A stretch of 64,000 nt of DNA, from positions 1-64,000 of the IMG/VR virus record IMGVR_UViG_3300044954_000337; one strand, 5' to 3'. Of the stretch, positions 1,727-46,980 are shown one piece after another. The notes under the pieces were generated by a model. It was given only the letters and a program-made list of their open reading frames with translations. It was not told the DNA's origin and ran no database searches. This DNA is from a virus. The position numbers and the translations under genes were made by a program. How positions within the stretch are numbered: the stretch's first letter is position 1; each line of letters begins with the position of its first letter.

Positions 1727-2308
1727 TTAGACCCCCCCGGGGGTAGCTGGTGCTGGCGGTGGGGAAACGGCGCTCGGAGAAATTGGAGCTTGTGCAGGAC
1801 CGCCAGGCGTAGCAGGCGGAGGCGGAGCAGCATTTCCTGGGGGCTGGGCACTTATCTGTTCTGCCTCTGGCTCCACTCCTGTACGAACGTTTACCATAAT
1901 CCTAGAAATATCCTGAAGATATTGGTCAATAATTTGATTCTGTTCGGGGGTTATTTTTTTGAAGTAGGTAACAAGTTGTCCGTAGACCTCTGGATCCGTA
2001 AAGGACTTACCCCCACGAATGACGTTTAGCCTTTCGATCATTGAATCAATGGTCATTTGTTGCGCCTGAGCTTGTGCAGGAGCGTCCTGGCCTTGCTGGG
2101 GAGGCTGGGCCTGGTCGGCTGGTGGCGTAGGCGCAGGAGGAGGCACAGGGCTTCCTGTGGGTGCTGCGGGCTGTGCAGGAGGAGGTGCAGGGGCAGGCTG
2201 CTGCTCATACAGGGCGAGGGTAACTGCCTCCCTTATGAGGTTTTCAAGTCCAAAAATACGAACTTGGGAGTTATTTTTGTCAGAGTTTTCTTTTTTGGTG
2301 GCGGACAT
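1727..2308 (-). CDS. Pro/Ala/Gln-rich protein with 16-residue helical tag
   Basis: 193 aa. Residues about 20-35 read LENLIREAVTLALYEQ, which aligns without gaps to the tag at the start of the proteins at 34.9-40.9 kb. A Pro/Ala/Gln linker follows, then a helical domain (SMIERLNVIRGGKSFTDPEV to about residue 145) and a second Pro-rich tail. Low-complexity linkers plus a tag suggest a virion core or scaffold component (inference). Antisense ORFs over this gene are products of its Pro/Ala codons and are not annotated. Confidence 0.45.
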   Translation of the reverse strand: MSATKKENSDKNNSQVRIFGLENLIREAVTLALYEQQPAPAPPPAQPAAPTGSPVPPPAPTPPADQAQPPQQGQDAPAQAQAQQMTIDSMIERLNVIRGGKSFTDPEVYGQLVTYFKKITPEQNQIIDQYLQDISRIMVNVRTGVEPEAEQISAQPPGNAAPPPPATPGGPAQAPISPSAVSPPPAPATPGGV

Positions 2309-18685: not shown

Positions 18686-18720
18686 GGACACAGGAGAATA
18701 ATTAAGATAATCCCGTGTCC
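18686..18720. promoter_or_regulatory. Interrupted palindrome at divergent junction
   Basis: GGACACAGGA (18686-18695) and TCCCGTGTCC (18711-18720) pair at nine of ten positions around a 15-base AT-rich loop. The arms include an AGGAG motif and the GTG start of the plus-strand gene. It could be an operator between the two divergent blocks or a translation-blocking hairpin (inference). Confidence 0.4.
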
Positions 18721-19896
18721 AATAACAACAAAAAAATAAAAGAAAACATAGGTGACTTTTCTGGGTCTCCTACGTTCCAGGGAAGTCCTTTTGGGTATGG
18801 AGGACCCAAGCAGCTTGCTGCCCCTACAAAGCCCCCTGAGGACTTTGAACGGATTATAGATGACCTAGTAGCCCAGGAACTTGAAGACATTTCTGGAGGT
18901 CAGCCAGACATTTTTACAGAGAGAAATCAAGCAGACCAGTTCTACAGGGACCTTCCAGGATTTCCTGCAACCAATACGCTGGTTGCCAAACGGATGTTCG
19001 TACCAGATGACCCGGCAGAAAAAGACAATGTTGATCTTCTTGGTCCAACCGTGGGCGGAATCGCCATTAAGGATATCCCCGGAAATACTTCCAACAACTG
19101 GAAAGCAACCACCCCAGAAAAAAGAGGAAGACAAATAATCGACATAAATGCACTTGTCAAGGACTATGAACTTCCAGAAAGTATTAGCGTTCTTGGAAGG
19201 GGTGAGTGGGGCTCTCCCTGGAATCCTGCTCAGCTTGTTGCCAAAAGAGACTGGCAAGCAGAAATAGAGCAAAATAAGGACGGCGACATAAAAGCCAAAA
19301 ATCCCGTGGGAGGAATGGGTATCACGGTGAGACCAATGGTTTTTGTTCCGAAGTCAGCCGAAAATCAAATAAATATTCAAAGGGAATCTTCTGCCTCTAA
19401 GGAAGTACTTAAACCAAGGAAAAATATACAAATGTCTACCAAAAATCTTGTTGAAACAATCAAAAAAATAATATTTGAGGAACTTTCTGAGGCAGAGGAA
19501 CTTGGAACCATGCAAACCTCTCAAAATATTATAAAAGCAATGGAAGACCTGGCTATAAAGTATGGAGGAAAAGGTCTTGAGGACTATGACCGGTTAGTGC
19601 CGCAGGCAGAAAAGGACAAACTAATTCGTTTTGGCAATGCCTCAATGAAACTTTCTAGGTCTATCCACGGGTCCCCAGTTGTTAAACCGCAACCCGGTGG
19701 ACCAAAACCCAGTGGACCAAATATTCAACAGTTGACTGCGAGAACTCAGGATCTTGCACGTAAGTACCAGTTACAGAAACAACAGATGCAAAATTCTGGC
19801 GTGGTCGTCCTAGGAACCCTCGTGGAAAATATCTTGGCAGAAGTCTTGCAAGAAATAATAGACGAAAGAGCAAAAGAGAATGGCAAAAATAAATAA
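18715..19896 (+). CDS. Structural-like protein with two tag copies; internal start likely
   Basis: 393 aa from a GTG at 18715. An in-frame stop at 18703 rules out a longer form. The first 230 residues are Pro/Asn-rich and unrecognised. TKNLVETIKKIIFEEL (about residue 242) and LGTLVENILAEVLQEI near the C-terminus both align to the tag seen at 34.9-40.9 kb. An ATG at 19432, just before the first copy, has AAGGA eleven bases upstream, so a nested 154-aa product is possible. The helical C-terminus and linkers suggest a head-core or scaffold role (inference). It overlaps the next gene by 17 bases. Confidence 0.45.
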   Translation: MSNNNKKIKENIGDFSGSPTFQGSPFGYGGPKQLAAPTKPPEDFERIIDDLVAQELEDISGGQPDIFTERNQADQFYRDLPGFPATNTLVAKRMFVPDDPAEKDNVDLLGPTVGGIAIKDIPGNTSNNWKATTPEKRGRQIIDINALVKDYELPESISVLGRGEWGSPWNPAQLVAKRDWQAEIEQNKDGDIKAKNPVGGMGITVRPMVFVPKSAENQINIQRESSASKEVLKPRKNIQMSTKNLVETIKKIIFEELSEAEELGTMQTSQNIIKAMEDLAIKYGGKGLEDYDRLVPQAEKDKLIRFGNASMKLSRSIHGSPVVKPQPGGPKPSGPNIQQLTARTQDLARKYQLQKQQMQNSGVVVLGTLVENILAEVLQEIIDERAKENGKNK

Positions 19897-30096: not shown

Positions 30097-31212
30097 CTAA
30101 AGCTTTGTTTTGTTTAAGGCTTCCTCTACCATTATCTGGCACAGATTGTCAAGATAACGGTGATTTGGCTCCCGAGGCAAAGCCGTGGAAGTCTTATAAA
30201 GATCGTTTAATTCTTTTTCTTGCCGGTCAGACCACTCAATAAGTTGGTCATATGTCCAGATGCCGTTATTTTTGATGGCAAGAAGCTCCTCCCTGTCCTC
30301 AACGCGCTTTACAATAACCTTGCCGTCGGTCAGGATTTCCCGGCACATTTTCATTAGACGAACAAGGTGCGAGGCATGTTTTGTGTCATAGCCGAATTTT
30401 GCCTCAAGTTCAGCCCTCTTTGGGTTTCTTGTCTTGAGCCAGTTCTGGTACTGTTCCCACTCTGTCTGTTTTGCCTTGAAGGCGCGTTCCTTTTGAAGGA
30501 GAGCAAGGAAATTGTCATCCAATCCCAGGGAACGTCCTGTCCTAGTCCAAACATCATCCCCTGTTAGGTGCATTTCCTCAAAAAACTTAGAGATATTTCC
30601 CTGAAGGGAAATTCTGTCGGCCTCGTCCAACACAGACCAGTCGAAGTCGAAGGTTTCAATCTTTTTCTTAATTTCGGCCTCTACCGCCCCAAGTTGGTCC
30701 CTTGGAATGATGGTAAATTCAGGAAGGTCAAAGTCTTTCCTAAGCGGAGGAGTCTTTGGCGGATTAGAAAGCCACCTGTGGTGTGTCTGGATGCGCTTTA
30801 GCTCAGCGTGGGCATATCCAGAAAATGTATGCTTTGCCTTAAGCGACAGGAACTTGTCCTTGTTTTCGACAAGGAGTTTTCCGAGGGAAGAAACCCTAAC
30901 CCACACACTTGGGTCGGTATGGAGAACTTCAATGATATTCGGGTTGCACTGTGCGGCTAGCTTGAAGAATTTTCTAATTTCATAAACAACAAGGTCATAG
31001 GGAACTTTTCCTTCTGCCTGTTCAAAACCCTCAGAGTACCCAAGATACACATTTTTCGGGGCAATACAAACACCCTTTACGTCAATGTCGGAAGTCTCGG
31101 TGTTGAGACCATACGCATGACTTCCATGCAACGTCGCAAAGATAGTTCTATCCGTAAGCCACTTTACGTTGCCATTGTACATGATGTTGAAATCTAGAGT
31201 GGGGTGCGTCAT
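30097..31212 (-). CDS. RlaP/YcgL-type nucleotidyltransferase
   Basis: 371 aa. The polymerase-beta-type signature is clear: HG30-S31 followed by D42-x-D44 (LHGSHAYGL, then TSDIDVKGV), and a YLGYSEGFEQ region as in the YcgL/RlaP family. This family was described as linked to RNA ligases in RNA repair operons; its reaction is not settled. The C-terminal two thirds are helical. Here it sits in one window with an RNA ligase and a 2H phosphoesterase, though not beside them. Confidence 0.75.
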   Translation of the reverse strand: MTHPTLDFNIMYNGNVKWLTDRTIFATLHGSHAYGLNTETSDIDVKGVCIAPKNVYLGYSEGFEQAEGKVPYDLVVYEIRKFFKLAAQCNPNIIEVLHTDPSVWVRVSSLGKLLVENKDKFLSLKAKHTFSGYAHAELKRIQTHHRWLSNPPKTPPLRKDFDLPEFTIIPRDQLGAVEAEIKKKIETFDFDWSVLDEADRISLQGNISKFFEEMHLTGDDVWTRTGRSLGLDDNFLALLQKERAFKAKQTEWEQYQNWLKTRNPKRAELEAKFGYDTKHASHLVRLMKMCREILTDGKVIVKRVEDREELLAIKNNGIWTYDQLIEWSDRQEKELNDLYKTSTALPREPNHRYLDNLCQIMVEEALNKTKL

Positions 31213-34904: not shown

Positions 34905-36566
34905 TCAAGACGCAACGCGATTTAAGGCAGCAGTTACAAAATCCCAGTTGTATTTATTGCCAATTCCAAAAAGTTTATCTAAAAGTCTCTTTCGATTATA
35001 GATATCGTCTGGTTTCAGTCCGCTCATAAGAGTGTCAACTATATCTACCCAACTTCTACTACTGCTATTTTGAAATCCTTCTGGAATTCTACGTTCCAGC
35101 GAACGAATTAAATCTGGAATCTGCTGGAGATGCTCACGACCGCCGATTGGGTCGGCGGTATACCTCTCCAGAATTGCTTTCATTCTCTCTGGATAAAAAA
35201 CAAGGGGTAATATATAATTGGGCCAGTAAATTTCTTCTTGGCGCGAGATGATAATTGTTGCCAAAACCTTTAAGGCGGATTCCGTAAGGGCAAATGTACC
35301 AGGATTGATTTTATGAATTCGAATAACTTTTTCTGCCCAACCATGGTTGAAAATCTCTCTTCCCCGGTCAACAATCATTCCTAGACCAATTCTAATTCTG
35401 CTATTTGCAAGTCTTATGTCGTCATTCGACCATCCGTCCCTAGGGACAGTTGCAAGATATTCAATTATTTTAAGTCCTTTCTCGGGGTTTTCTTTTATGG
35501 CGTTGTTAAAATAATCCCAGTTGAGTGCTGGTCTTGGGTCACGCTTGAGGTCTTCCATAGAAAAAACATTAAATGGAGCGATACCAATTGCTGGTTGCAA
35601 GAAATTATTTAATATGTCAAGAATTGGCTTTGGGTACTTTTCTTCTATGTAAATTTTTTTCTTTTCGTTATCTTGTGCGTCATATATCTCTATCTGCTCA
35701 ATATCTCCAGCAAAGGCGATGGCATCTTTGTCTCCTGTTTTCTTGTTTATGACAAACAAGAATCTTGCACCTTTCTCGAAATATTCATCAAAATAGTTTT
35801 TAGATTGTGTAGCGGATATACACCACTGAGTTCCTTTTCCGTACACGCAAGAGGCTTCCTTGCTCCTTGGCTCTATTATGAGATATTCTTGGTCCTCATA
35901 AATTTTTTCTGCAGTTTTTTCTGCCGCCTTTTGCTGTTGGGCTACCTCGGCTTCTGCCTCGGCTTTTTCTACCACGCGGAGAAGGCTATATAAATCTTTG
36001 TACTTTAAAATATCCTTGGAGTCTTGTGGGATTCTGTTGAGTTTTAACATCTTCTCAAATCTGTTGACAACCCCTAATTCGCCTTCTGCTGTTTCGTTGG
36101 CATTATTACGAATGTAGTTAGCGTTTCTATAATCTTTATTATTGGGATAAGTTTTTGCCTTTATTTCCCAATCTACTGCCCATTCTTTTCCTCTTGCTGT
36201 AAGCCATGGCACATACTTTGGCAGTACATCTCCTTGTTTTAAAGTCTCCAAGAAAGCCGTAAGAAACACATCATCTTTCGCCGCCGCAATGGCTTGGTCT
36301 ATCTTTCCCTCAAGAAGTCTAGTGGTTGACTCCCCAAGGCCCATTCTAGGCGGATCGTGGGAATATGGCTTTTTGTTAAGGTTCTTGGAAACCTTCTTCA
36401 TCACAGACTTAGTTCTTTTCTTGTTGGGGTCATTCCTGTCCATGTACACGGCCCCACCACCAATCATGCCTCTTCTGACAGACTTGGTAGCTTTTTTGTG
36501 ACCCATGTCATCAAGAACATTTTCCACAAGGGCCTCAATAAGTTTTTTTATTGTCTCTGTCGCCAT
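34905..36566 (-). CDS. Tagged protein with CxxGxGTxWC-type domain
   Basis: 553 aa. Residues 5-21 carry the tag (IKKLIEALVENVLDDM), followed by a Lys/Arg/Gly-rich linker to about residue 75. Residues 225-285 hold a domain with Cys240 and Cys249 in EASCVYGKGTQWCISA, then YFDEYFEKGARFLFVINKK. I recall it from many large marine-phage proteins of unknown function; the paired Cys and Trp suggest a catalytic or zinc site. The C-terminal half is helical. It follows three more tagged genes in the same direction, almost without gaps. Confidence 0.5.
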   Translation of the reverse strand: MATETIKKLIEALVENVLDDMGHKKATKSVRRGMIGGGAVYMDRNDPNKKRTKSVMKKVSKNLNKKPYSHDPPRMGLGESTTRLLEGKIDQAIAAAKDDVFLTAFLETLKQGDVLPKYVPWLTARGKEWAVDWEIKAKTYPNNKDYRNANYIRNNANETAEGELGVVNRFEKMLKLNRIPQDSKDILKYKDLYSLLRVVEKAEAEAEVAQQQKAAEKTAEKIYEDQEYLIIEPRSKEASCVYGKGTQWCISATQSKNYFDEYFEKGARFLFVINKKTGDKDAIAFAGDIEQIEIYDAQDNEKKKIYIEEKYPKPILDILNNFLQPAIGIAPFNVFSMEDLKRDPRPALNWDYFNNAIKENPEKGLKIIEYLATVPRDGWSNDDIRLANSRIRIGLGMIVDRGREIFNHGWAEKVIRIHKINPGTFALTESALKVLATIIISRQEEIYWPNYILPLVFYPERMKAILERYTADPIGGREHLQQIPDLIRSLERRIPEGFQNSSSRSWVDIVDTLMSGLKPDDIYNRKRLLDKLFGIGNKYNWDFVTAALNRVAS

Positions 36567-36567
36567 A

Positions 36568-37398
36568 TTATACCCCTATGTCAAGTGCCTTGATGTTTCC
36601 ATTAGCATCCAAGCCCCAGTGATCTGCCCTATCTATGTCCATAACGTTGTGGTGAACCGCAAGAACAAAATATTTGTTCAGAAGTTCCTCCGCTTTTGGA
36701 TTTGACTTGTAGATATTTAGAAGTTCCTCGGCTCTGGCGGCAGACCAAGCCACCTCGTCGCCCTTCATTTGCGAGATAGCAAGAAGAAACTCTCCGGCGA
36801 CTTTATGGTTTTTTGCACCAAGCTCGCGTGTGTTTATCAGAGTATCAAATGTACCAAGGTTTCTCCTGGAAACGCCTGTTATATTTTTCATATTGGCATC
36901 TTGCCCCGGTCTATCAAATTGTTTTATTGGCTCTACCACAAACCACGAAGAATGATCTTTGTCATAATCATATATTGTTGGGACAAGTCCAGTTCCGGCT
37001 AAGTCTAGGGAACGATCTATTTCTTTCTTAAACTGACCGAATTCGTCAAATCCATACCTAGAAATTTTTAGAATCTTTCCAGAGGAAATAGCAAAAACAT
37101 CTTTTGCGACTCCAAAACCAAGGTATGGGATGGCAAACTTGTTTACATAGTCCCACTGCTGTTCCACTGGAAGGGATTTAAACTTTCTCATGTTAAATCC
37201 TCTGAACATGGCTTCCGGCAAAACCTTCTTCTTCTTTCTAGGTTTATCCCCTGACCACATAACCCGGTGCTGTGGTGTCATATTAATTCCAAGAGGCTGA
37301 CCTCCGGTTGCAGAAACCCCTCCGGCGCCTATGGCATTAAACTCGTCCAGTTCTTGCTGGACGAGTTCTTCAATCAAATTTTTGAGATTAGTATTCAT
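36568..37398 (-). CDS. Tagged kinase-like protein A
   Basis: 276 aa. Tag LKNLIEELVQQELDEF at residues 5-20, then a Gly/Pro/Lys linker of about 40 residues. From residue 62 it is homologous to the next gene upstream. The kinase/APH-like features are a Gly-loop (YLGFGVAKDVFAI, residues 92-104), a strand Lys (KILKIS, Lys111), a hinge (HSSWFVVEPI), and a C-terminal DANGNIKALDIG with the metal-binding Asp. The position that normally holds the catalytic-loop Asn reads HWG. The phosphate acceptor is unknown, and the fold is inferred from motif order. Confidence 0.5.
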   Translation of the reverse strand: MNTNLKNLIEELVQQELDEFNAIGAGGVSATGGQPLGINMTPQHRVMWSGDKPRKKKKVLPEAMFRGFNMRKFKSLPVEQQWDYVNKFAIPYLGFGVAKDVFAISSGKILKISRYGFDEFGQFKKEIDRSLDLAGTGLVPTIYDYDKDHSSWFVVEPIKQFDRPGQDANMKNITGVSRRNLGTFDTLINTRELGAKNHKVAGEFLLAISQMKGDEVAWSAARAEELLNIYKSNPKAEELLNKYFVLAVHHNVMDIDRADHWGLDANGNIKALDIGV

Positions 37399-38020
37399 GG
37401 GTCATTCCTAAATCAACACAAACAAGTCTTCCACCAGCCGTTATTCCCCAGTGAGCCCAGTGGGTTACATCATCCATTCCACCCCTGGCAAGGTGAGCCA
37501 TTTTTGCTATAAGTATCTTCCCTAGTTTTGTTGGTGAAACATCGGGAACCTCCCACGATTTTACTTTGTTGAATTCCCTGCTTAGGTTTTCTGGGGTGAC
37601 TTCTGGGTGGGTCAAAAGAAAATGAAAGGCGCTTTCAAGCCAAGTTTCATTGAGTCCCGTGTCTGCCTCAAACTGCTCGGCAGACTGCCAGGTTGTGGCA
37701 TGTTCGGAAATCATCCATGTAAAATACTCATCATGGTCATAAATGGCCGGGGCATACTTAGGTCCGAATTTCTTGAAAGCAGAAAACTCCTTGGAGTTCT
37801 GTTCTGCGTCCTTAGCTATTTTTATAACTTTCTCTGGGGAAAGAGCATAGGTGCATTTTGCCACACCACATCCCAGTCTAGGCAACCCAGTCTCCTTGGC
37901 GTAGGTCATTCTTTCTTTGTAACCGGGAAGTGCCCTGAAATGTTCCAGGTCAAAACCCGATAAAAATGCTTCCTCCACAAGACGGTCAAGCATTTCCCTA
38001 AGGGAGACAGAGGCGTTCAT
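37388..38020 (-). CDS. Tagged kinase-like protein B (paralogue of A)
   Basis: 210 aa. The tag LREMLDRLVEEAFLSG runs directly into the domain shared with protein A: SGFDLEHFRALPGY, RLGCGVAKCTYALSPEKVIKI (Gly-loop and Lys, as two adjoining strands), DEYFTWMISEHA (hinge), and THWAHWGITAGGRLVCVDLG at the C-terminus. The linker present in A is missing. It also has HWG where Asn is usual. The start of gene A lies within its last codons (11-base overlap). Confidence 0.5.
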   Translation of the reverse strand: MNASVSLREMLDRLVEEAFLSGFDLEHFRALPGYKERMTYAKETGLPRLGCGVAKCTYALSPEKVIKIAKDAEQNSKEFSAFKKFGPKYAPAIYDHDEYFTWMISEHATTWQSAEQFEADTGLNETWLESAFHFLLTHPEVTPENLSREFNKVKSWEVPDVSPTKLGKILIAKMAHLARGGMDDVTHWAHWGITAGGRLVCVDLGMTHEY

Positions 38021-38029
38021 GCCCTTTAA

Positions 38030-38707
38030 TTATACCGGCAAACCTCTGGCTTTCAGAATATTTTCAAGCTTTTGGATAGTGTCCTGTGGATTTTTGTGCA
38101 AAATGATGGTTCCGCCGTTTGCCTCAAACTTGGAGGTATACTTGGTGCGGTCATCAATCAAAATACTATTAGAGTTCGCGTAGTTATGCTTATCCTGGGT
38201 GCAAATAAAATCCGAAAACATCCCTTGGAAGTTTTTTTCTATCCACTGGCGTTTTTCTTCCTCGCACCTAGCAGGATCATTGTCAATCGGGGCAGTAAGG
38301 ACAACTGGCTTTTTACCCGTCATGGCTGCTATCCTCGAAACCATTTCCTGTGCTCCAGAAAGCACAGGGAGGCTCAGGAAAAATCCTTTTTGTCCTGCAA
38401 CGGCAAATTTCTGCTCCCTGTATTTCTGCCAGGCTTTCTTCAGGGCTTTAAGTCCTGGGTCCGTCTGAGGGCCAGCAAGCCTTGCTTTGAGTTCATCATC
38501 CTGAAGGGTAGAAAACTCTGGAAACTTGCTAAGAAGCAAGTCGAAAGTCTGTTTAGTTTTATTGGAGCTTCCACCCGTTCTGTCTTGAACGCCTTGGTCG
38601 AATGCAGCAATCACACCGTCCATGTCTACGTAAACAGTCGGAGTATTTAAAACCCCAAGCTCAGCTTCTACTAGATTTTCTACAAATTCTCTTAAAATTT
38701 TAGTCAT
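38030..38707 (-). CDS. Tagged HAD-family 5'-nucleotidase-like phosphatase
   Basis: 225 aa. Tag LREFVENLVEAELGVL at residues 5-20, then immediately the HAD core: D28-x-D30 (VYVDMDGVIAAFD), a Thr motif (PVVLTAPID), Lys and the acidic motif (SNSILIDDRTKY). It resembles the 5'(3')-deoxyribonucleotidase group, which removes phosphate from nucleoside monophosphates. A polynucleotide 3'-phosphatase role is an alternative. A hairpin (38708-38733) sits against its start codon, and no clear ribosome-binding site is seen. Confidence 0.7.
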   Translation of the reverse strand: MTKILREFVENLVEAELGVLNTPTVYVDMDGVIAAFDQGVQDRTGGSSNKTKQTFDLLLSKFPEFSTLQDDELKARLAGPQTDPGLKALKKAWQKYREQKFAVAGQKGFFLSLPVLSGAQEMVSRIAAMTGKKPVVLTAPIDNDPARCEEEKRQWIEKNFQGMFSDFICTQDKHNYANSNSILIDDRTKYTSKFEANGGTIILHKNPQDTIQKLENILKARGLPV

Positions 38708-38733
38708 GTGCTACTTCTACTAGTAAGTAGCAC
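38708..38733. promoter_or_regulatory. Perfect 9-bp-arm hairpin at a start codon
   Basis: GTGCTACTT (38708-38716) and AAGTAGCAC (38725-38733) pair perfectly around an eight-base loop, ending at the base before the ATG of the HAD gene on the minus strand. No T-run follows in either direction that would make it a normal terminator. An RNA processing site or translation-control hairpin fits better. Confidence 0.45.
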
Positions 38734-38769
38734 AAAACTTTCGCATCTTCAACTTTCGCTACAATGCGA

Positions 38770-39693
38770 TCAAAAAACAGACACCACAGGCGGCTCGGAA
38801 GCAAGAAGCCTTCTTATTACTTCCACGCTGCTATAAATGGTTATGTGAGAATGTGTAGCGTTTCTTCCGGCAAGAATAGCATTTGCAAGAGCAACTACTT
38901 CTCCTCTAGAATTTACTAGAGGTCCACCAGAACATCCAGGGGATGTGGCAACGTTTGTCTGAATAACACTTACCATGCCTGGGTCTGTTCTGTCATTTTG
39001 AATGAGCCCAGAAACTATGCCGCTTACGAAGTACCAAGGAACCCCAAGCGGGTGACCAACATGGAATACTTCGCTACCTATACTTGGGACTTCCTCTGCG
39101 AGTGGGACGTAAGCTACTGGGTTATAAAGATACCAGTTTTCTTCCCTTACCGTCAAAATAACCACGTCATTGTCCTCGTCCCACAAAATAACCTCTACCG
39201 GAACAGGGTTTCCGGTTACCTGCCCTTCGTGGGTGATACCACCACGATTAACAAACCATCCCCTGTTTCCAATTGGATTTGGTCTGGTTGGAACCTGCAA
39301 GACAATCCCTGGTATAATTTCAACCAGCATTATCTCTTGAAAGCAGTGAGCGGCACTTATAATGTGAATCTCGTCCACAAAAAACCCTGTGCAGTATGGA
39401 CCTTGCCACTCTACCTCGGAAAGATTCTCAAGACCACTCTCTATGGTTTCTGTCGGCTCCACAAAGGCAACTGTGGCGTTTAAAAGTCTTTCTGTGTTTT
39501 CTTCTGACAGACTAATTCTGGAAACTGGTTCTTCCGGTCTTACAACCCTCTGTGCGCAGCTTACGCAACACATCAGAATCATACCAGTTGCCATAAAAGT
39601 TCCTACGGCTGTCAAAAATTTAGATAAATTACTATTGTTTCCCCTTACAAAATTATGCGTTCCCATTCTCTCCTCGTGTCTCCCATGTGTCAT
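38770..39693 (-). CDS. Exported trypsin-like serine protease, probable lipoprotein
   Basis: 307 aa from 39693, or 298 aa from an ATG at 39664-39666 that has GAGGAG just upstream. A signal sequence (FLTAVGTFMATGMILMCC) ends near VSCAQR, a weak lipobox. The catalytic triad is visible: SAAHC (His), DEDNDVVIL (Asp) and SPGCSGGPLVN (Ser), in HtrA/trypsin order. It would act in the periplasm or at the outer membrane. Possible roles are envelope protein turnover, superinfection control or lysis timing. Confidence 0.8.
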   Translation of the reverse strand: MTHGRHEERMGTHNFVRGNNSNLSKFLTAVGTFMATGMILMCCVSCAQRVVRPEEPVSRISLSEENTERLLNATVAFVEPTETIESGLENLSEVEWQGPYCTGFFVDEIHIISAAHCFQEIMLVEIIPGIVLQVPTRPNPIGNRGWFVNRGGITHEGQVTGNPVPVEVILWDEDNDVVILTVREENWYLYNPVAYVPLAEEVPSIGSEVFHVGHPLGVPWYFVSGIVSGLIQNDRTDPGMVSVIQTNVATSPGCSGGPLVNSRGEVVALANAILAGRNATHSHITIYSSVEVIRRLLASEPPVVSVF

Positions 39694-39703
39694 AAATATG
39701 ACA
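39688..39703. promoter_or_regulatory. Palindrome over the protease start codon
   Basis: TGTCATA and TATGACA flank a two-base AA spacer, a perfect seven-base-arm palindrome that covers the upstream start codon (39691-39693) of the protease gene. It has the size and symmetry of a dimeric repressor site. If the ATG at 39666 is the true start, the palindrome lies in the leader. Confidence 0.4.
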
Positions 39704-39722
39704 TAACACGAAAATAAAAGAA

Positions 39723-40925
39723 TCAGGAAGTCATTCTTCTGAAAAGTTCTGTTTCCCGACGTTCCATTTCTGCTCCAAGTTCTTTACCTTGGAATCCCTG
39801 ATTCTGAAGTTCCAATCCAGTTATGGATGGCTCATATCTCAAGAAGACTTTAACCAGGTGCTCTGGAGGATTACCTACCAGTCTAGAAAATTCCTCTAAA
39901 TCTTGAGAACTCAGCCGGGAGTTCTTAAAAAGCTTCTTCATTTTGTAAGCATTGGGTACATTTAATCCTAAAAATGCCGCTAAGAATGAAACTTGAGATA
40001 CTTCATCTGCAGAATATTTTAGGTTATTGAGTTTCCCCATAATAACCTTGGGACTATTTTCTCTTAATAGGACAGCCAGGGCAACAGGGATATTTTTGGT
40101 ATCCTTGAAATCCCTAGAAACAACCATTCCCGGGAAAATCTGTGGCCATAGGTCAAATTCTGATATCAAATTAAGGAATTGCGGTACACTTTTGGCACTT
40201 TTAATACCCTTTAAGAATTCATCCCTAATTCTTTCCCCAGACACTCCATCCAGAGAGTTATTGGATTTAATGGCCTGAGCAGTCTCAGGATCCAGCCCAG
40301 AACCGATTCTAGCCGCGAACCGAATGGCACGTAAGATTCTCAGCCTGTCCTCGTCAAAGCGTTCCTGGGGGCTTCCAACGGTCCTAATGACACCTTTTTC
40401 AATGTCTTCTATCCCGCCAACGTAGTCTATGATTTCTTGGGTCTCTATGTCATAAAAAAGGGCATTTATTCTGAGGTCTCTTCTTTGTTGGTCCTGCTCT
40501 ATGGAACTAACAAAATTAACGGCATCTGGCCTACGTCCCTTTCCTACGTCAGTCCGAAGGGTGGCAATCTCAAATTCCCCTCCTTCTGGGGTAATAACCT
40601 TAACAACTCCAAAGGATTTACCAATTTCAAGGATTTTTAGGCTTGGGTCTTGTTTTAAAATATCAATCGTGTCATCTGGCTGAGCATCCGTGGCAACATC
40701 CAGGTCCTTGGGCTGCTTGCCCATGAGGGCGTCCCTTACAGAACCACCCACAAGCCAGAATCCTTTGTTATTTGCCTTGAACATCTTGGAGAGACGAAGA
40801 AGGTCGGGTGGCAAAGAAATTGGAAACTTTTTTCTGATAGGTGAGGTAGAATTTTCTATTTCTAGCAGAATATTCTCTACCAAATATTCTACGTAACGTC
40901 GCAGATATTGATTTTTCATAGCCAT
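39723..40925 (-). CDS. cca: Tagged class II CCA-adding / poly(A) polymerase-type enzyme
   Basis: 400 aa. Residues 8-23 carry the tag (LRRYVEYLVENILLEI). The head domain has G60-G61 (FWLVGGSVRDALMGK), D74-x-D76 (KDLDVATD), RRDLRINALFYD and the RFDEDRLRILRAIRFAAR motif that reads the base. A helical body follows, about the usual length for class II enzymes. It would add or repair tRNA 3' CCA ends, or tail RNA. Bacterial homologues start near the GG motif without such a lead, so the tag is an addition. Confidence 0.88.
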   Translation of the reverse strand: MAMKNQYLRRYVEYLVENILLEIENSTSPIRKKFPISLPPDLLRLSKMFKANNKGFWLVGGSVRDALMGKQPKDLDVATDAQPDDTIDILKQDPSLKILEIGKSFGVVKVITPEGGEFEIATLRTDVGKGRRPDAVNFVSSIEQDQQRRDLRINALFYDIETQEIIDYVGGIEDIEKGVIRTVGSPQERFDEDRLRILRAIRFAARIGSGLDPETAQAIKSNNSLDGVSGERIRDEFLKGIKSAKSVPQFLNLISEFDLWPQIFPGMVVSRDFKDTKNIPVALAVLLRENSPKVIMGKLNNLKYSADEVSQVSFLAAFLGLNVPNAYKMKKLFKNSRLSSQDLEEFSRLVGNPPEHLVKVFLRYEPSITGLELQNQGFQGKELGAEMERRETELFRRMTS

Positions 40926-40926
40926 A

Positions 40927-41838
40927 TCACGACATATTTTTTATCTGATTAAGTTTTTGTTGAAGTTCTTGTGGCGTTTTTGATTGATAAAGATCAAGGG
41001 CTTTTCTGTGCGCAGCGTACAAAATTTTCTTTGCCCTTGGATCTTGTGGATTATCATTTAAAGAAAAATTAGAAAAACCTAATCCTTTTTCATGCGCAAA
41101 ATCTGAAAGTATGCGATTTATAGCAAAGCGGTCTTCTTGGCTTCTTTTTTCTATTGGCTGACCGCTAGGTCCAAGTATGATCGCAAAACGATAAGCTAAT
41201 GATTTTTCTTTGTTATCGAAATTTTGAGCCCTTTGCCAAGCTGCCTGCAAAGCCTGGTGCGTGTCAATTCCCTTGAAATTAATTTGCGACAAGGTACCAA
41301 CCATAGACGTAATCAAGTTATTAACCAAAGTTTTCATTTGGTTTAATTTTGTAGCATCCATCTGTACCGAAAGTTGATTAAGAATCAGCTGACTTATTTG
41401 TTCTGGGCTTACTTCAATGCCGGCAGTATTTGGGTTAAAGTCTTCCAAGCTTATCATAATGGCTATTCTCAAAATGGCTTCACCTATGTTGTATTTTTGA
41501 GCAATGCCAATATCCTTCATATTTAGAACGCCAGCCCTTTTTTCAAAATCTTGTACTTTGTCTCCAAGTGCCCTCCCTGCGGCAAAAAAAGAATTTAGCG
41601 CGTTTGAAAAAGTGGCGTAATCTTTTTCAGTAAATCCCAAAGCACTCATTTGTTTTTCGAAGTTTAAAATTAATGGGGTGACACGTTTCATTATTTCAGT
41701 TTTAAGCTGCTCGGTAGGCATCGCGTCCCAGTTTGGCTCTTTGCCTTTTCCAAAAAACATATCCAATAAGCCCTCATTTAAAGAATTTGGATATTTTTCC
41801 GGGTAAAGGAACGGTAATAATGATAAATTTCTAGACAT
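40927..41838 (-). CDS. Hypothetical helical protein, possible short tag
   Basis: 303 aa, no recognised family. Residues about 19-32 (LNEGLLDMFFGKGKE) resemble the short form of the tag (GLLESLLFEQ). The rest is helical, Gln/Asn-rich, with an internal region that looks like a bundle (NQLSVQMDATKLNQMKTLVN). It lies one base upstream of the CCA-type gene and is part of the tagged block by position. Confidence 0.4.
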   Translation of the reverse strand: MSRNLSLLPFLYPEKYPNSLNEGLLDMFFGKGKEPNWDAMPTEQLKTEIMKRVTPLILNFEKQMSALGFTEKDYATFSNALNSFFAAGRALGDKVQDFEKRAGVLNMKDIGIAQKYNIGEAILRIAIMISLEDFNPNTAGIEVSPEQISQLILNQLSVQMDATKLNQMKTLVNNLITSMVGTLSQINFKGIDTHQALQAAWQRAQNFDNKEKSLAYRFAIILGPSGQPIEKRSQEDRFAINRILSDFAHEKGLGFSNFSLNDNPQDPRAKKILYAAHRKALDLYQSKTPQELQQKLNQIKNMS

Positions 41839-41845
41839 ATCGTTA

Positions 41846-42625
41846 CTAAGTATGTTTTAAAATCCACTTAATTGCCGCGAGGTCAAAGCCTACCCTAGAC
41901 CTCAGGGATTTTGTCTGAGGAGTTTCTAGAGTTGTGGTTTCCCCACACCCAAGCTCACAAGCAAAAGTCTCGGATGTCCCTTTGTACTCAGGATATTGCC
42001 ACAACCCTTTTTTCCTTGGCACCCCTAGGGCAATCTGGAGAGATTTTACCAAGCCCTTTACCTTCTTGTTTCTAAAGAGATATGGTTCCTTATCCTTGAT
42101 TGTAGAGTCCTCATGGATGTCTACAAAAATCTGGGGTTGAAAGTTCTCTAGTTCGTTTTTAAGTTCGTGGATGTACTTTGGAGCCCTCTCCTTGTTCCAT
42201 ACACAGTTAAGGTTCATCCTACCAGATTCAAATCTTCTTTTGTTGTTCCAAGCTTCATGTCCGATAATTGGACACACAAGAAGAGACACATTTTTTGGAA
42301 TAAGATTTCTTCTTTTGGTAGACTCAAGCCACGCAAGGAGAGCCACAGGGCCGGAGCGTTCCTCCCCATGGATTCCAGAAATTATAGCTACCTTGGCTGG
42401 ACCCTTGCCAAGATAATACACAACTCTGCCACTATCAAGAAGTCTTGCCCTAAATCCATGTCTTTTTGCTGCCTTATGGAATCTTTCCATGTATTTGTCA
42501 GCAGACAGGCTATTGATTTTATTCAGTTTTGCAGAGATTGGAACCAAGGAAGAAACTTCAGAAGAGATAATTCTCTTTGTCCAGGCCGACCTTTTCTTTT
42601 TTGTTAATGTCTTCTTCCCTGTCAT
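41846..42625 (-). CDS. M14-like zinc carboxypeptidase / AstE-AspA-type hydrolase
   Basis: 259 aa. Zinc ligands are visible as H-x-x-E (ISGIHGEERSGPVALL) and a later His (IFVDIHEDS). MNLNCVWN follows the family's N-x-N pattern, and TTTLETP carries the catalytic Glu. The N-terminal 55 residues are basic and hydrophilic. Relatives remove acyl or amino-acid groups from small molecules or peptides. A role in trimming peptidoglycan or a modified amino acid is possible, but the substrate is unknown. Confidence 0.65.
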   Translation of the reverse strand: MTGKKTLTKKKRSAWTKRIISSEVSSLVPISAKLNKINSLSADKYMERFHKAAKRHGFRARLLDSGRVVYYLGKGPAKVAIISGIHGEERSGPVALLAWLESTKRRNLIPKNVSLLVCPIIGHEAWNNKRRFESGRMNLNCVWNKERAPKYIHELKNELENFQPQIFVDIHEDSTIKDKEPYLFRNKKVKGLVKSLQIALGVPRKKGLWQYPEYKGTSETFACELGCGETTTLETPQTKSLRSRVGFDLAAIKWILKHT

Positions 42626-42672
42626 GCCCCTAAGTATGGCAGGAAAAATATTAACCGAATATCAAAATATTG

Positions 42673-42972
42673 CTACGGAATAGGAATTAACCGTAGGCAT
42701 GGTTTTGAAAACCAACCGCCAACCCAAAATTTTATACCAGTTTTTGTATTTTGCAAGTGGAAACTAAAATTATTTTCCTCTAAAACATAATAAATTTCAT
42801 CTAATCTGTATTCTGACTTAAAATTATTATTGTGGGCAAGCGAATAAAGCTTTAGTTCCCATGCTTTTTGGGTTATTTGAGCGATATCAATAAGTTCTTG
42901 TTTAGAATCTCCAAAAAAAATAGTGGAGCCTGTGAAATTATTGCAAATTCTATATTTTTGGAGGTTATCCAC
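42673..42972 (-). CDS. Hypothetical protein (99 aa)
   Basis: Taken from a GTG at 42970-42972 that overlaps the last codons of the reductase gene; the longer open frame would lie mostly inside it. No family recognised: a helical middle (DSKQELIDIAQITQKAWELK) and a C-terminal strand region rich in aromatic residues (GIKFWVGGWFSKP). Confidence 0.4.
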   Translation of the reverse strand: MDNLQKYRICNNFTGSTIFFGDSKQELIDIAQITQKAWELKLYSLAHNNNFKSEYRLDEIYYVLEENNFSFHLQNTKTGIKFWVGGWFSKPCLRLIPIP

Positions 42973-45487
42973 ATTTACTGTGTCCGCAATTTTTGCACGA
43001 GACACATCCTTCTTGATAAATGAGATTGCCAGAGCCACAGGAGGGGCATTTCTTCTCTGATGCCTTTGTCCCATCCTGGATATACTCTTTCAGAACCCTG
43101 GACATGGCTCTTGAAAAAGAAAACAGGTCGTCATCCTTCTCGGAACCTTTTACAAGTTGTTCCACGACATACTGAACGGGCGTTCCATGCCTGAGGGCAA
43201 GAGAGATCGTTCTGGTAAAGGCTGCGTTTGTGGCGTTATCAAAAACTGCTGCAATGTCCTTTACAACCGTTTCATCCTCTGGAGACTTTTCGAAGTCATA
43301 GTGGAAGTCATATCTTGGAACAGGATTCTCCAAGCCGTTGTGCTTTACTATTTTTCCTACCTTGGCTCTTTTTGGAATGGAGATGTATTTTGACAAGCCG
43401 CCCATTATTTCATAAGGTCTTTCCTCGTGGAGGCCAACGAAGAAAGTCCACTTCTCACCCTGAACGGTTGTATGAATAACGTCACATCCAAGTTCTTTCG
43501 GTCTTTTGGGAGCATGATGGTCAAGAAATTTATTTTCTGCATCTTTTGTTCCCATTGTCTGAGAGTTTTCCGTAACCAGAACGCCAGTCCTGGAGCCGTC
43601 ACGATAAATCGTGAATCCCTTGCAGCCAGATTCCCAGGCAGACATATAAATGTCACCAACAAGCTCCTTTGAGGCCGTATTTGGTAGATTGCAAGTTTTG
43701 GAGATAGCATGACAAATATATTCCTGAGCGGCAGCTTGCAATTTTACCGAGGCTTTCCAGTCTACGTCATTTGCTCTTGACTTCCAGTAAGGAGATTCCT
43801 CTACCTTTGTTTTCCCGGTAATCTTCATCCATTTCTGGAACTGAGGATGATAAACCTCATACTCTTGCCACTTGTCTCCCAAGTCGTCCACAAAGTCCAC
43901 ACGGACATCTTTGTCACTTGACATTATCTTTCTACGACGCTTGTAGACAACCTCAAATGCTGGTTCAATGCCGGAGGTTGTTCTTGTCAGAATCGACACA
44001 CTTCCTGCCGGTGCAGTTGTAGTAAGGGCGATATTTCTACGACCAAATTTCTTTAGTCTTTCCTTTAGAGCTTTATCGTGTTGAGCAATTTTGTTGATAA
44101 ACGGGTGATCTTTTTCTTTCTCGTAGTCGTATGCCGGAAATGGTCCACGTTGCTCTGCCAGGCATGTAGTTTCCCAATAGGCGTTATGCGCTAAAAGGCC
44201 ATATATGCTATGAACAGTCTCTATGGACTCTGCCGAGCCATATCTTTGACCAAGTGCGGCAATGGTATCTCCAACAGCCGTTACGCCAAGTCCAGTTCTG
44301 CGACCTCTCTCACAAGAAACACGAATTCTCTTCCAGAGATCACTTTCTATTCGCTTTACGCTTTCTGGCTCTGGATCATTTTTTATCTTCTCTATAATTT
44401 TGTCGATACACTCCAGTTCTAGGTCAATCATGTCGTCCATAAGACGCTGCGCCAATCTTACGGTGTTCCCATAACTTTTTCCATCAAATGTTGCCTTGTC
44501 TGTAAATGGATTTTCCACAAAGGACAACGTGTTGACGAGCATGAGTCGGCAACTATCATCCTTAGACAGAACTATTTCGGAACATGGATTTACACCAACG
44601 CTAGCAAACTCCTCATAGCAATCGCTAGGAGTATTTTTAAGAACAGTGTCCCAAAACAACAAACCTGGTTCAGCGCAAGCATGGGCACTATCAATTATTT
44701 GATCCCAAATCTGTTTAGCGGAAACCTTTTTGGATATTTCTGGTGTCTTGGAGTTTGTTGGCCACCTTAACTCAACCTGGTCATTTGCCTTGACCGCTTT
44801 CATAAATTCGTCCGTAAGACGAATAGAAATGTTGGCACCCGTTACTTTCTTAAGGTCTCTCTTGATGTTTATAAAGGTTTCAATTTCTGGATGATGAACA
44901 GAAATCGTCAACATTAGGGCGCCCCTTCTTCCAGAGCCTTGGGCGACCTCTCTGCACGAGTTCGAAAATCTTTCCATGAAGACGGCAATGCCATCCGTGG
45001 ACTTGGCAGCATTTTTGGTAATTAAACCCTTCGGTCGAATATTAGAAATATCAAACCCAACACCAGCCCTTCTTTTCATCAACTGAACTTGCTCTTGGTC
45101 GGTCTTGAGAATTCCTCCGTAGGAGTCATACGGGGGTTCAAGCGTGTAGCAATTGCTTAAGGTCATCACCTGATAAGGGTTTCCAATCCCTGCCATGGGG
45201 GAACCTTGTGGAACAATATACTTGAAGTCTTTCAGATAAGAATAAATCACCTCTTCAGAAACAGGGTTTGGATATTTTTTTTCTATCCTTGCAAATTCCT
45301 TTGCAAGCCTCTTGTGCATTTCATCGGGAGTAGGCTCCAAAACTTCACCCGTGGGTGTGGTAAGGGCATATTTGTCAACATAAACTCCTGCCGCAAGAGC
45401 ATCACCACCAAAGTATTCCGTTGATCTTTCTAGTGCTTCATTGTAATCTGTCATGTTTTTCTCTAAGTTGTTTTCGCGGTATATCAT
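42965..45487 (-). CDS. nrdJ: Class II (adenosylcobalamin-dependent) ribonucleotide reductase
   Basis: 840 aa from an ATG overlapping the helicase stop. A second ATG at 45452-45454, preceded by AGAG, is also possible. Reductase motifs include VMTLSNCYTL, VGVNPCSEIVLS (redox Cys and radical-site region), TTTAPAGSVSILTRTTSG and a C-terminal zinc ribbon (CPSCGSGNLI, then CVSCKNCG). No separate radical-generating subunit is encoded here, as expected for the B12-dependent class. It makes dNTP precursors and is coupled to the replication genes. Confidence 0.93.
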   Translation of the reverse strand: MIYRENNLEKNMTDYNEALERSTEYFGGDALAAGVYVDKYALTTPTGEVLEPTPDEMHKRLAKEFARIEKKYPNPVSEEVIYSYLKDFKYIVPQGSPMAGIGNPYQVMTLSNCYTLEPPYDSYGGILKTDQEQVQLMKRRAGVGFDISNIRPKGLITKNAAKSTDGIAVFMERFSNSCREVAQGSGRRGALMLTISVHHPEIETFINIKRDLKKVTGANISIRLTDEFMKAVKANDQVELRWPTNSKTPEISKKVSAKQIWDQIIDSAHACAEPGLLFWDTVLKNTPSDCYEEFASVGVNPCSEIVLSKDDSCRLMLVNTLSFVENPFTDKATFDGKSYGNTVRLAQRLMDDMIDLELECIDKIIEKIKNDPEPESVKRIESDLWKRIRVSCERGRRTGLGVTAVGDTIAALGQRYGSAESIETVHSIYGLLAHNAYWETTCLAEQRGPFPAYDYEKEKDHPFINKIAQHDKALKERLKKFGRRNIALTTTAPAGSVSILTRTTSGIEPAFEVVYKRRRKIMSSDKDVRVDFVDDLGDKWQEYEVYHPQFQKWMKITGKTKVEESPYWKSRANDVDWKASVKLQAAAQEYICHAISKTCNLPNTASKELVGDIYMSAWESGCKGFTIYRDGSRTGVLVTENSQTMGTKDAENKFLDHHAPKRPKELGCDVIHTTVQGEKWTFFVGLHEERPYEIMGGLSKYISIPKRAKVGKIVKHNGLENPVPRYDFHYDFEKSPEDETVVKDIAAVFDNATNAAFTRTISLALRHGTPVQYVVEQLVKGSEKDDDLFSFSRAMSRVLKEYIQDGTKASEKKCPSCGSGNLIYQEGCVSCKNCGHSKCG

Positions 45488-46980
45488 GCTAAACTTTCAA
45501 GCTTCACAGGATTATTTTCGGATTTTTCTTTTTGTTGTTCTTTGTAAATTTTTCTAAGTGCAGAAATTGCACTTGAGCTTTGACTACTATTGTTGTTTCC
45601 GTGCGAGGATGAGAAATTATTGCCGCCGCCATTATTACCGCTTGTGGCATTCTCAGCAAGCTCTGGTTCCATTTCCGAAATAATTTTAAGCTTGGACTTG
45701 GAAGTATCCAGGTGTACGTAAAATTGAATTCCGTCCTTACCTGCTCTGTTTTTTGCAATAAACAGAGTTCCGTATCCGGTTGCCTTCATCTCGGGCTTTC
45801 TGTGAAAGCCGAAAATTACATCACAAGCATGACTCTGACCATAGGACTCTGCCATGTTCGTCATGTCAATAAAGTCTTGCTTGCTGCCTTCCTTGTTTGA
45901 CTGTGTTGCTGTCCAAATTGGTACGTTGAGTTCCTGGGCAAGACCTCTGAGTTCCTCGAATATTCTCTGAAGTTCCATTCTTGGAAGTTCATATTTTTCT
46001 GTGGAACGCATGATTCCAGAGTAGTCCACGATAACGAGATCTGGTCTAAATCCAGTTAGAGCAAGTCTGTCAAGGTGATTTCTAAGAGTCTGAACGGTTG
46101 CCGTTCTCGTCGGGAACTCTTTGATAATTAACTTGCCATAGGTTTCTTCATTTTCCTTGTAGTGGTCCTTTATTTTTTGAATGTTCTCGGAGCACTCAAG
46201 AGAATTAATGTCGCAAAGATAGCTGTCGTACCTAACTCCCATAGCTCTTTCTCTAAGCTCAAAGGAATAGTGAACAACATTTTTACCTCTCTTTATTGCC
46301 TCTGCACCAAACTGGATTAGGATGTGTGATTTTCCTACGCCGGACAGAGCAACGACCGTGCCAATTTCTCCGGCACCAAGTCCGCCATTTAGAAGTTGCT
46401 TAGCGTCAAGCTCTGGGATTCCTGTCTTAATTGGATTTCTAGCCGTCTCAGAGTACCTTGCCTCAACGTCAGTACCGAGGGAAAGGCCAGGCGCAGTCGT
46501 CATACCGGCCGCTAGAGCCTCTTTGATGACGGTGGCTACCCTGTCATAGTCCTCGCTTACAATAAGCTCCACAGATTTTTCTAGAGCCATCTGGAGCCCT
46601 TGCTTGCGGCAGAACTCAAGGGCTCTGTCCTTCACAAATGGAAGGTCGCCAAGATTTTCATTCCTTGCAATCATAACAAGGAAGGAATAAATCTGCTGCC
46701 TTAAAATAGAATCCCTGTCGGACTTAAGTTCCTCTACCAGAATTGTTCTCAGAAGTTCGTTTGATGGAAACTCCTTGAACTTTTTGTGGTATTCCACATA
46801 CTTGCTTGCTACCAGCTTCAGGTAAGCATGTTCAAAATAACTAACATCCAATACTTCTGCAAATTGCGCAGCCCAGATTTTATCTGAAATCATGGCCTGA
46901 ACAATTTTTTCCTGAAACGTTTTATCAAAGGTGAAATGTTTCCCTTGATTTTGCGTTTTGTCCTGTAAACTCGTGGACAT
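45484..46980 (-). CDS. dnaB: DnaB-like replicative helicase
   Basis: 498 aa from the ATG at 46978-46980, which has AAGGAG seven bases upstream; the TTG two codons earlier is unlikely. An N-terminal helical domain is followed by a RecA-type ATPase: Walker A (ALSGVGKSH, about 211-219), Walker B (LVIVDYSGI), and the Gln-bearing TATQSNKEG motif. The tail is Asn/Ser/Gly-rich. Its order and size fit phage gp41/DnaB helicases. It overlaps the reductase gene by ATGA. Confidence 0.92.
   Translation of the reverse strand: MSTSLQDKTQNQGKHFTFDKTFQEKIVQAMISDKIWAAQFAEVLDVSYFEHAYLKLVASKYVEYHKKFKEFPSNELLRTILVEELKSDRDSILRQQIYSFLVMIARNENLGDLPFVKDRALEFCRKQGLQMALEKSVELIVSEDYDRVATVIKEALAAGMTTAPGLSLGTDVEARYSETARNPIKTGIPELDAKQLLNGGLGAGEIGTVVALSGVGKSHILIQFGAEAIKRGKNVVHYSFELRERAMGVRYDSYLCDINSLECSENIQKIKDHYKENEETYGKLIIKEFPTRTATVQTLRNHLDRLALTGFRPDLVIVDYSGIMRSTEKYELPRMELQRIFEELRGLAQELNVPIWTATQSNKEGSKQDFIDMTNMAESYGQSHACDVIFGFHRKPEMKATGYGTLFIAKNRAGKDGIQFYVHLDTSKSKLKIISEMEPELAENATSGNNGGGNNFSSSHGNNNSSQSSSAISALRKIYKEQQKEKSENNPVKLESLA

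Follow-up and report, generated by a model that had tools for sequence, protein, structure and literature searches.

A shared N-terminal helix on unrelated phage enzymes as a probable capsid-targeting tag

Results

Five tagged genes

The window, meaning the whole stretch of DNA analysed, comprises 64,000 nucleotides of a virus (positions 1 to 64,000 of IMG/VR record IMGVR_UViG_3300044954_000337). Between 34905 and 40925, on the minus strand, five open reading frames (ORFs) open with a single gap-free amphipathic helix of 16 residues, here called the tag, which is carried on four unrelated bodies. The genes and tags are as follows:

34905..36566, minus strand: tagged protein of 553 amino acids, matching PHROG 28193/17056 (unknown function)
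36504..36551, minus strand: its tag IKKLIEALVENVLDDM, starting at residue 6
36568..37398, minus strand: kinase-like protein A, 276 amino acids, tagged, paralogue of kinase-like protein B
37339..37386, minus strand: its tag LKNLIEELVQQELDEF, starting at residue 5
37388..38020, minus strand: kinase-like protein B, 210 amino acids, tagged, with PDB fold matches
37955..38002, minus strand: its tag LREMLDRLVEEAFLSG, starting at residue 7
38030..38707, minus strand: HAD 5'-deoxyribonucleotidase (Pfam NT5C), 225 amino acids, tagged
38648..38695, minus strand: its tag LREFVENLVEAELGVL, starting at residue 5
38770..39693, minus strand: trypsin-like serine protease, 307 amino acids, without tag, between the HAD and CCA genes
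39723..40925, minus strand: CCA/poly(A) polymerase-type nucleotidyltransferase, 400 amino acids, tagged
40857..40904, minus strand: its tag LRRYVEYLVENILLEI, starting at residue 8

The original prediction of five tagged ORFs in this block holds for every ORF and peptide, and the serine protease is, as it also said, the sole interruption of the run; this protein has a hydrophobic N-terminus of its own ending in CVSC, a possible lipobox or export signal as judged by eye. The description of the carriers as five mostly unrelated enzymes stands with regard to the shared tag, while the number of independent families is four, the two kinases being paralogues. Glutamate had been expected at position 6 and often at positions 10 and 15. 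Position 6 reads E/E/D/E/E and position 10 E/Q/E/E/E; three of the five tags have an acidic residue at position 15, which is Glu in two. Positions 8-10 are L-V-E in four tags and LVQ in one.

The best PDB folds for kinase-like protein B are APH(2'')-Ia and protein kinases (E about 3e-4, TM about 0.4). A megablast search of annotated phages with the region gave no match, nor did a tblastn search of phages with kinase-like protein B, and for these kinases there is therefore no proteome from a cultured relative.

The hydrophobic moment of the tags (0.41-0.49) would suit an amphipathic helix that anchors proteins to a membrane. However, their net charge is -1 to -4, unlike that of typical basic membrane helices, and the one protein of the block that looks exported has a hydrophobic signal of its own and bears no tag. 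Membrane anchoring is thus very improbable.

Statistics and conservation

The tags were scored leaving one family out at a time, with 10,729 internal 40-mers as the null set. The held-out score is higher than that of all 10,729 for four of the five tags, and 28 of them score as well as the tag of the second kinase. Because the leave-one-family-out scores of the tags exceed those of the null 40-mers, a chance origin of the shared tag is excluded. The codons of the tags differ (nucleotide identity 0.35-0.56, few identical codons), and recent duplication of the tag as DNA is therefore ruled out. The dN/dS ratio of the tag codons is about 0.24 and 0.27 in the two genes for which it was computed, HAD and kinase B; the tag is translated and under purifying selection.

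The tag is retained in the syntenic relatives L086, L087 and L088. L086 carries MTGNNIQQLIEELVEQEL on a protein syntenic with kinase-like protein A and keeps the kinase-like protein B tag as LREVLDRLVEEAFLSS. The HAD tag is kept in L086 and L087 but is missing from most other viral homologues; most of the 48 HAD homologues in other contigs begin 4-20 residues ahead of DMDGV. The CCA enzyme of the window has about 34 more N-terminal residues than solved CCA enzymes (residue 10 of the CCA-adding enzyme 1miv aligns with residue 44 of the query), and the CCA homologue of Atu_ph07 has no leader. Judged from these alignments, in which homologues elsewhere begin at the core, the tag is not part of the HAD and CCA folds. 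The original prediction had pointed to homologues with the same lead peptide in their fold as the contrary case, and none occurred for these two enzymes.

Short helices are common, and the kinase paralogues share their tag by descent, as might be seen if the tag were an ordinary part of each fold or if helices near the start were alike by chance. This has a negligible likelihood in view of the leave-one-family-out statistics, the homologues without tag and the AlphaFold model of kinase-like protein B, in which a separate helix at residues 7-20 has low confidence (block means 54-61 pLDDT vs about 86-94 in the body). The HAD model is poor (pLDDT 63) and was used only for its predicted N-terminal helix.

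Similarity to the T4 capsid targeting sequence

The T4 proteins IPIII and IPII have proven capsid targeting sequences (CTS). The tag matches the T4 sequence MKTYQEFIAE, which is followed after the cut by A, without gaps at K2/Y4/E6/I8/E10. With a profile built from 11 tags of the clade, IPIII ranks second and IPII third among 284 T4 N-termini, and eight T4 core and internal proteins score above the remaining T4 N-termini (p=0.0015). With a profile of the five window tags alone, the same two proteins rank only 12th-13th of 284, so the resemblance to T4 varies with the choice of profile; IPI ranks low.

The T4 targeting residue F7 has no match in the window tags (A/E/R/N/Y), and the tag helix continues about six residues beyond the putative cut, whereas the T4 sequence stops there. 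A putative L/I-x-E cleavage site lies at positions 8-10 in four of the five tags, yet E-rich helices yield such sites easily.

Head genes and leaders in other phages

Genes for a gp21-type protease or a gp23-type capsid protein gave no match on the 65-kb contig of the window phage, which is a genome fragment. Both are encoded by the nearest long relative, G004 (60% RNR identity), and by G001, G007, G010, G012, G013, G016, G018-G020 and W01-W03, the protease matches of W01-W03 falling below the family's cut-off.

The CCA homologues of T4-superfamily huge phages bear different leaders, each common to its own neighbour proteins: MKVKGFKEYNLLIEAA in L003, MILKKYKMFLES in LR745206 and MIITKYAKFLES in LR756502. 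In LR745206 one leader is found on 40 of 405 sampled proteins from 35 families, many of them short unknowns. The leader patterns are LRxYVEYLVE in the window, MK[YH]LKxFNE in LR745206, MKxFxxFLxE in cyanophages and KRxLRRLIxE in marine phages. Strict regular expressions in the T4 register found little in huge-phage genomes outside their own dialect.

These observations also bear on an intracellular docking tag, a helix that would bring nucleotide and tRNA enzymes to the replisome, the ribonucleotide reductase or another phage compartment instead of the capsid. Acidic amphipathic helices bind proteins in a generic way, and among the tagged bodies are several nucleotide or tRNA enzymes whose genes adjoin those for ribonucleotide reductase, helicase, UvsX and SSB. 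The neighbours themselves (RNR, dUTPase, UvsX, SSB and a DnaB-like protein) are nevertheless without a high-scoring N-terminal tag, kinases are not obvious replisome clients, and the spread of the LR745206 leader over so many families and short unknowns does not fit. Docking is therefore considered unlikely.

In the published virion proteome of phage S-CREM2, three enzymes have T4-register leaders: a SAM hydrolase (MKDFDSFLEEF), an APH-like kinase (VKRFDAFLTEE) and a cytidylyltransferase (MKNFSSFLTEA). The leader rule was written after the mass spectrometry (MS) list had been seen, and a loose regular expression run on the whole S-CREM2 genome was not significant (p=0.08). For S-SZBM1 the rule was fixed beforehand, and the outcome was mixed and showed no enrichment: the matches ORF191 and ORF192 are absent from the MS list, and the cytidylyltransferase that MS did detect carries a leader one residue shorter (MRFRQFIIEA).

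Further tag-like helices

A score scan of the window revealed additional tag-like helices:

18715..19896, plus strand: protein of 393 amino acids with internal tag-like helices at 18844-18891 (score 15.1), 19810-19857 (12.6) and, weaker, 19438-19485 (8.5)
2201..2248, minus strand: weak N-terminal tag-like helix LENLIREAVTLALYEQ (score 8.3), preceding a Pro-rich linker in ORF 1727-2308
30106..30153, minus strand: weak C-terminal tag-like helix LDNLCQIMVEEALNKT (score 8.3), on an RlaP-type nucleotidyltransferase at 30097-31212

That some of these are internal or C-terminal counts against the interpretation of the tag as a cargo signal. On the basis of the scan, the 393-residue protein is a possible core or scaffold-type protein. 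A multi-tag protein of 395 residues is also encoded in L089.

Tagged proteins might alternatively bind one another through the hydrophobic face of their helices and assemble into a complex inside infected cells, with multi-tag proteins of this kind as hubs. A prohead core would accommodate the multi-tag proteins just as well. Such self-association leaves unexplained the match to the T4 CTS, the L-V-E at positions 8-10 and the differing leaders on the same enzyme across lineages, and is rather improbable.

Discussion

The tag is probably a capsid-targeting propeptide akin to the CTS of T4 IPII and IPIII, in a dialect of this lineage; we put the probability at about two in three. A T4-like cargo tag had been proposed in the original prediction, and this proposal is partly supported: it is uncontradicted by the tests run, of which the S-SZBM1 outcome was mixed. 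In its favour are the similarity to the T4 CTS, the other leaders appended to the same enzyme in T4-superfamily phages and, by analogy with relatives, the gp21 and gp23 genes of the nearest long relative, together with enzymes of the same classes that carry leaders in a published virion proteome. The S-SZBM1 result, the unmatched F7 and the head genes not found on the contig weigh against it.

Targeting, cleavage and injection in the window phage, as we infer them, might proceed as follows. During head assembly, the amphipathic helix at the N-terminus would attach to a constituent of the prohead core or scaffold, so that the cargo (two kinase-fold proteins, a 5'-nucleotidase, a CCA-type nucleotidyltransferase and the 553-residue protein) would already be inside when DNA packaging starts. 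Cleavage after L-V-E within the helix, probably by a gp21-type protease, would then release the mature enzymes, which would leave the head along with the DNA and be active during the opening minutes of infection.

It is possible, at somewhat less than even odds, that T4-superfamily huge phages have a general cargo code readable from sequence, in which lineage-specific leader dialects are matched to each phage's own prohead core. Such leaders might be carried by dozens of unrelated enzymes, in some cases as two or three copies or at the C-terminus, and a large preloaded toolkit would then reach the host together with the DNA. Were this so, sequence alone would be enough to list the proteins that uncultured huge phages inject, among them kinases, nucleotidases and tRNA-end enzymes active ahead of all phage gene expression. 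The T4 CTS, a curiosity confined to three internal proteins, would become a rule whose signals differ between lineages, and new tags would be available for loading proteins into phage heads.

In the literature on shared leaders in jumbo or T4-like phages, only work on T4, P1 and SPN3US was found. T4 has the CTS of IPI, IPII and IPIII and the Alt propeptide, all processed by gp21, and the tag is likewise a short N-terminal leader on unrelated proteins that matches at positions 2, 4, 6, 8 and 10, with a putative L/I-x-E site at 8-10; a gp21-type protease is encoded as in T4, here in the nearest long relative. In the T4 CTS, processing depends on residues 8 and 10 and targeting on residues 4 and 7, and a stretch of the first 10 is sufficient (PMC9026906). 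Unlike it, the window tag is not aromatic at position 7, is hydrophobic at 5 and 9 instead, reaches as a helix to about residue 16 and sits on bodies that T4 is not known to tag (CCA, HAD and kinase), where its targeting role is putative.

In P1, an N-terminal segment of DarB sends the protein, and also a reporter, into the head (PMC9024508). The role proposed for the tag is similar, but the DarB segment has 30 residues and no consensus exists among Dar N-termini according to that paper (PMC9024508). In SPN3US and phiKZ-like phages, the sections of the published work drawn on here describe N-terminal propeptides of head proteins that are cut by the prohead protease (PMC10052503). Most are long (111-254 residues) and belong to ejection and structural proteins, two have only 20-24 residues, and a shared short tag is not reported in those sections (PMC10052503).

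The leader-bearing enzymes of S-CREM2, which include a kinase-fold protein and a nucleotidyltransferase among unrelated enzymes with CTS-like leaders (PMC10665884), resemble those of the window by enzyme class. Their leaders are in the T4-register dialect (F4, F7, L8, E10), unlike the window tags, and the main text of that paper does not mention a capsid-targeting leader (PMC10665884). They were detected in purified virions, and this comparison shows that virion proteomes already in print can be searched again for leaders.

The tag and the proteins that carry it

The block at 34905-40925 (- strand) holds six ORFs, five of which open with a gap-free amphipathic helix of 16 residues.

553-aa protein: tagged, matches PHROGs of unknown function
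Kinase-like proteins A and B: tagged, paralogues of each other
HAD nucleotidase (Pfam NT5C): tagged
Poly(A)/CCA polymerase (CCA): tagged
38770-39693, trypsin-like protease: the only ORF of the block without the tag

The original prediction of one shared tag was confirmed by leave-one-family-out profiles: held-out tags scored 18.3, 20.1, 10.2, 16.0 and 20.3, four of the five above an entire null of 10,729 internal 40-mers and that of the second kinase matched or exceeded by 28. The bodies, predicted to be mostly unrelated, represent four independent families and not five because the two kinases are related. Nucleotide identity between tags is 0.35-0.56 with few codons in common, which excludes recent copying. 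In comparison with the syntenic contig L086, dN/dS in the tag is near or under that of the body for HAD (0.24 and 0.22) and kinase B (0.27 and 0.38).

The untagged protease has a hydrophobic segment ending in CCVSCAQ, a possible lipoprotein signal also present in L086. Such an apparent export signal of its own fits the tag as a competing address.

For HAD and CCA, the tag lies outside the enzyme fold. Between the first ATG and the catalytic DMDGV, most HAD proteins of other viral contigs have 4-20 residues (e.g. MTIYVDMDGV), compared with 27 in the window HAD; some of these homologues form the C-terminal domain of a longer protein. Residue 10 of the CCA-adding enzyme 1miv aligns to residue 44 of the window CCA, giving the phage enzyme about 34 extra N-terminal residues, and the CCA of phage Atu_ph07 begins right at the core. 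Most of these HAD homologues, 1miv and the Atu_ph07 CCA do without such a lead segment. The model of kinase B shows the tag as a low-confidence helix (residues 7-20, block means 54-61) on a body of ~86-94, whose fold is similar to those of APH and protein kinases (E ~3e-4, TM ~0.4).

Tags and motifs in related contigs

Tagged proteins in L086, whose RNR is 71% identical to that of the window, are HAD, two kinases and one protein of 265 aa. L087 has the tag on HAD and probably on CCA, and L088 and L243 on a kinase. Two tag helices occur in the 265-aa protein and apparently three in a 395-aa protein of L089, each followed by a conserved linker, so the tag is a module that is mostly but not invariably N-terminal. 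At L086:4553-6436 a P-loop kinase-like domain is fused ahead of a CCA-type enzyme, with the tag-like stretch RQTLLEQVLLETEP at the junction.

A second recurrent motif, approximately A[VI]xG[VYA][ST]xP[LV]GxxP, is present in small proteins and at the C-terminal end of long ones, downstream of amphipathic helices and acidic/basic linkers (12 matches among 4,010 proteins, 0 among reversed proteins).

Sites of the second motif
L086:9370-10167
L089:15648-16835
L096:5345-5581
L098:3814-4056
L101:5305-5592
L105:5318-5599
L114 and L148, C-termini

Likeness to T4 and lineage-specific leaders

IPII and IPIII of T4 begin with MKTYQEFIAEA. The tag lines up with this capsid-targeting sequence at positions 2 (K/R), 4 (hydrophobic/aromatic), 8 (L/I) and, with E in most tags, 6 and 10, but T4 F7 is not conserved, so the tag is a dialect and not the T4 sequence itself. 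In T4, residues 4 and 7 serve targeting and 8 and 10 processing, ten residues being enough (PMC9026906). A clade profile of 11 tags ranked IPIII second and IPII third among 284 T4 ORFs (eight core/internal proteins vs the rest, p=0.0015); with window tags only they ranked 12th-13th (p=0.02). A 54-aa lysine-rich T4 ORF (AF158101, 18966-19130) also starts with a leader of this kind, MKTFKEFIKED.

CCA homologues in huge phages of the T4 superfamily also have an extra leader, unlike the window tag.

Leaders of CCA homologues
L003: MKVKGFKEYNLLIEAA
LR745206: MILKKYKMFLES
LR756502: MIITKYAKFLES

The LR745206 type, M[KRI][YH][LI][KR]x[FY], opens 40 of 405 sampled proteins against 0.5 expected from shuffles, and the 36 bearers longer than 70 aa form 35 families (blastp beyond residue 25). 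T4-like KTFEEFITE and QTFNEYLTEA in G001, the contig of L003, are among the top N-terminal matches of the window-only profile. In Atu_ph07 (39484-46418) a row of YRGM-containing proteins in a virion-rich cluster, ADP-ribosyltransferase-like by eye, starts with M[KR]WxxLxE, possibly a further dialect.

The main rivals to a cargo tag are a docking element for a replisome or metabolic partner and a self-association helix; both leave the T4 resemblance and the lineage-specific leaders unexplained.

Head genes and virion proteomes

No gp21- or gp23-type gene was found on the 65-kb contig, itself a genome fragment. The long contig nearest by RNR (G004, 60%) encodes a gp21-type protease (E 9e-28) and a gp23-type capsid protein (E 4e-64), as do many other relatives; protease matches in three huge phages (W01-W03) were under the family cut-off. 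Small proteins at G004:C1:86803-86910, G005:C1:49745-49846, G021:C1:30187-30291 and L087:5231-5713 match only the gp23 N-terminal propeptide (KWxxTGLLEGL-like), as if, judging by sequence, the capsid propeptide doubled as a leader on other proteins.

Five non-structural proteins among the 52 listed for the S-CREM2 virion (PMC10665884) have leaders in the T4 register by sequence; the main text of that paper does not mention capsid targeting.

Leaders of S-CREM2 virion proteins
SAM hydrolase: MKDFDSFLEEF
gp13: MKDLHSFLTEQ
APH-like kinase: VKRFDAFLTEE
gp136: MQTFSMFFSED
Cytidylyltransferase: MKNFSSFLTEA

A Cas9-like virion protein has LRFASFMAEAA at about residue 17. A strict leader rule, devised post hoc with the virion list already known, selected five detected proteins and one undetected (p=0.003, 214 proteins; p=2e-5 outside structural blocks). 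Applied unchanged to S-SZBM1, and set before those data were examined, it matched ORF191, which like the hand-found ORF192 is absent from the 30 detected virion proteins; the detected cytidylyltransferase has a leader shorter by one residue, MRFRQFIIEA. The outcome in this shallow proteome is mixed.

The predicted role as a cargo tag as in T4 is partly supported, by the T4 likeness, the differing leaders on CCA in other T4-superfamily phages, the head genes of G004 and the S-CREM2 leaders, with S-SZBM1 mixed. As a cargo tag, the helix would most likely bind the prohead core, the tagged enzymes would become enclosed in the head, a gp21-type protease would cut after LVE, and the enzymes would be ejected together with the DNA. 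The tag would then belong to the capsid-targeting sequences as a variant form.
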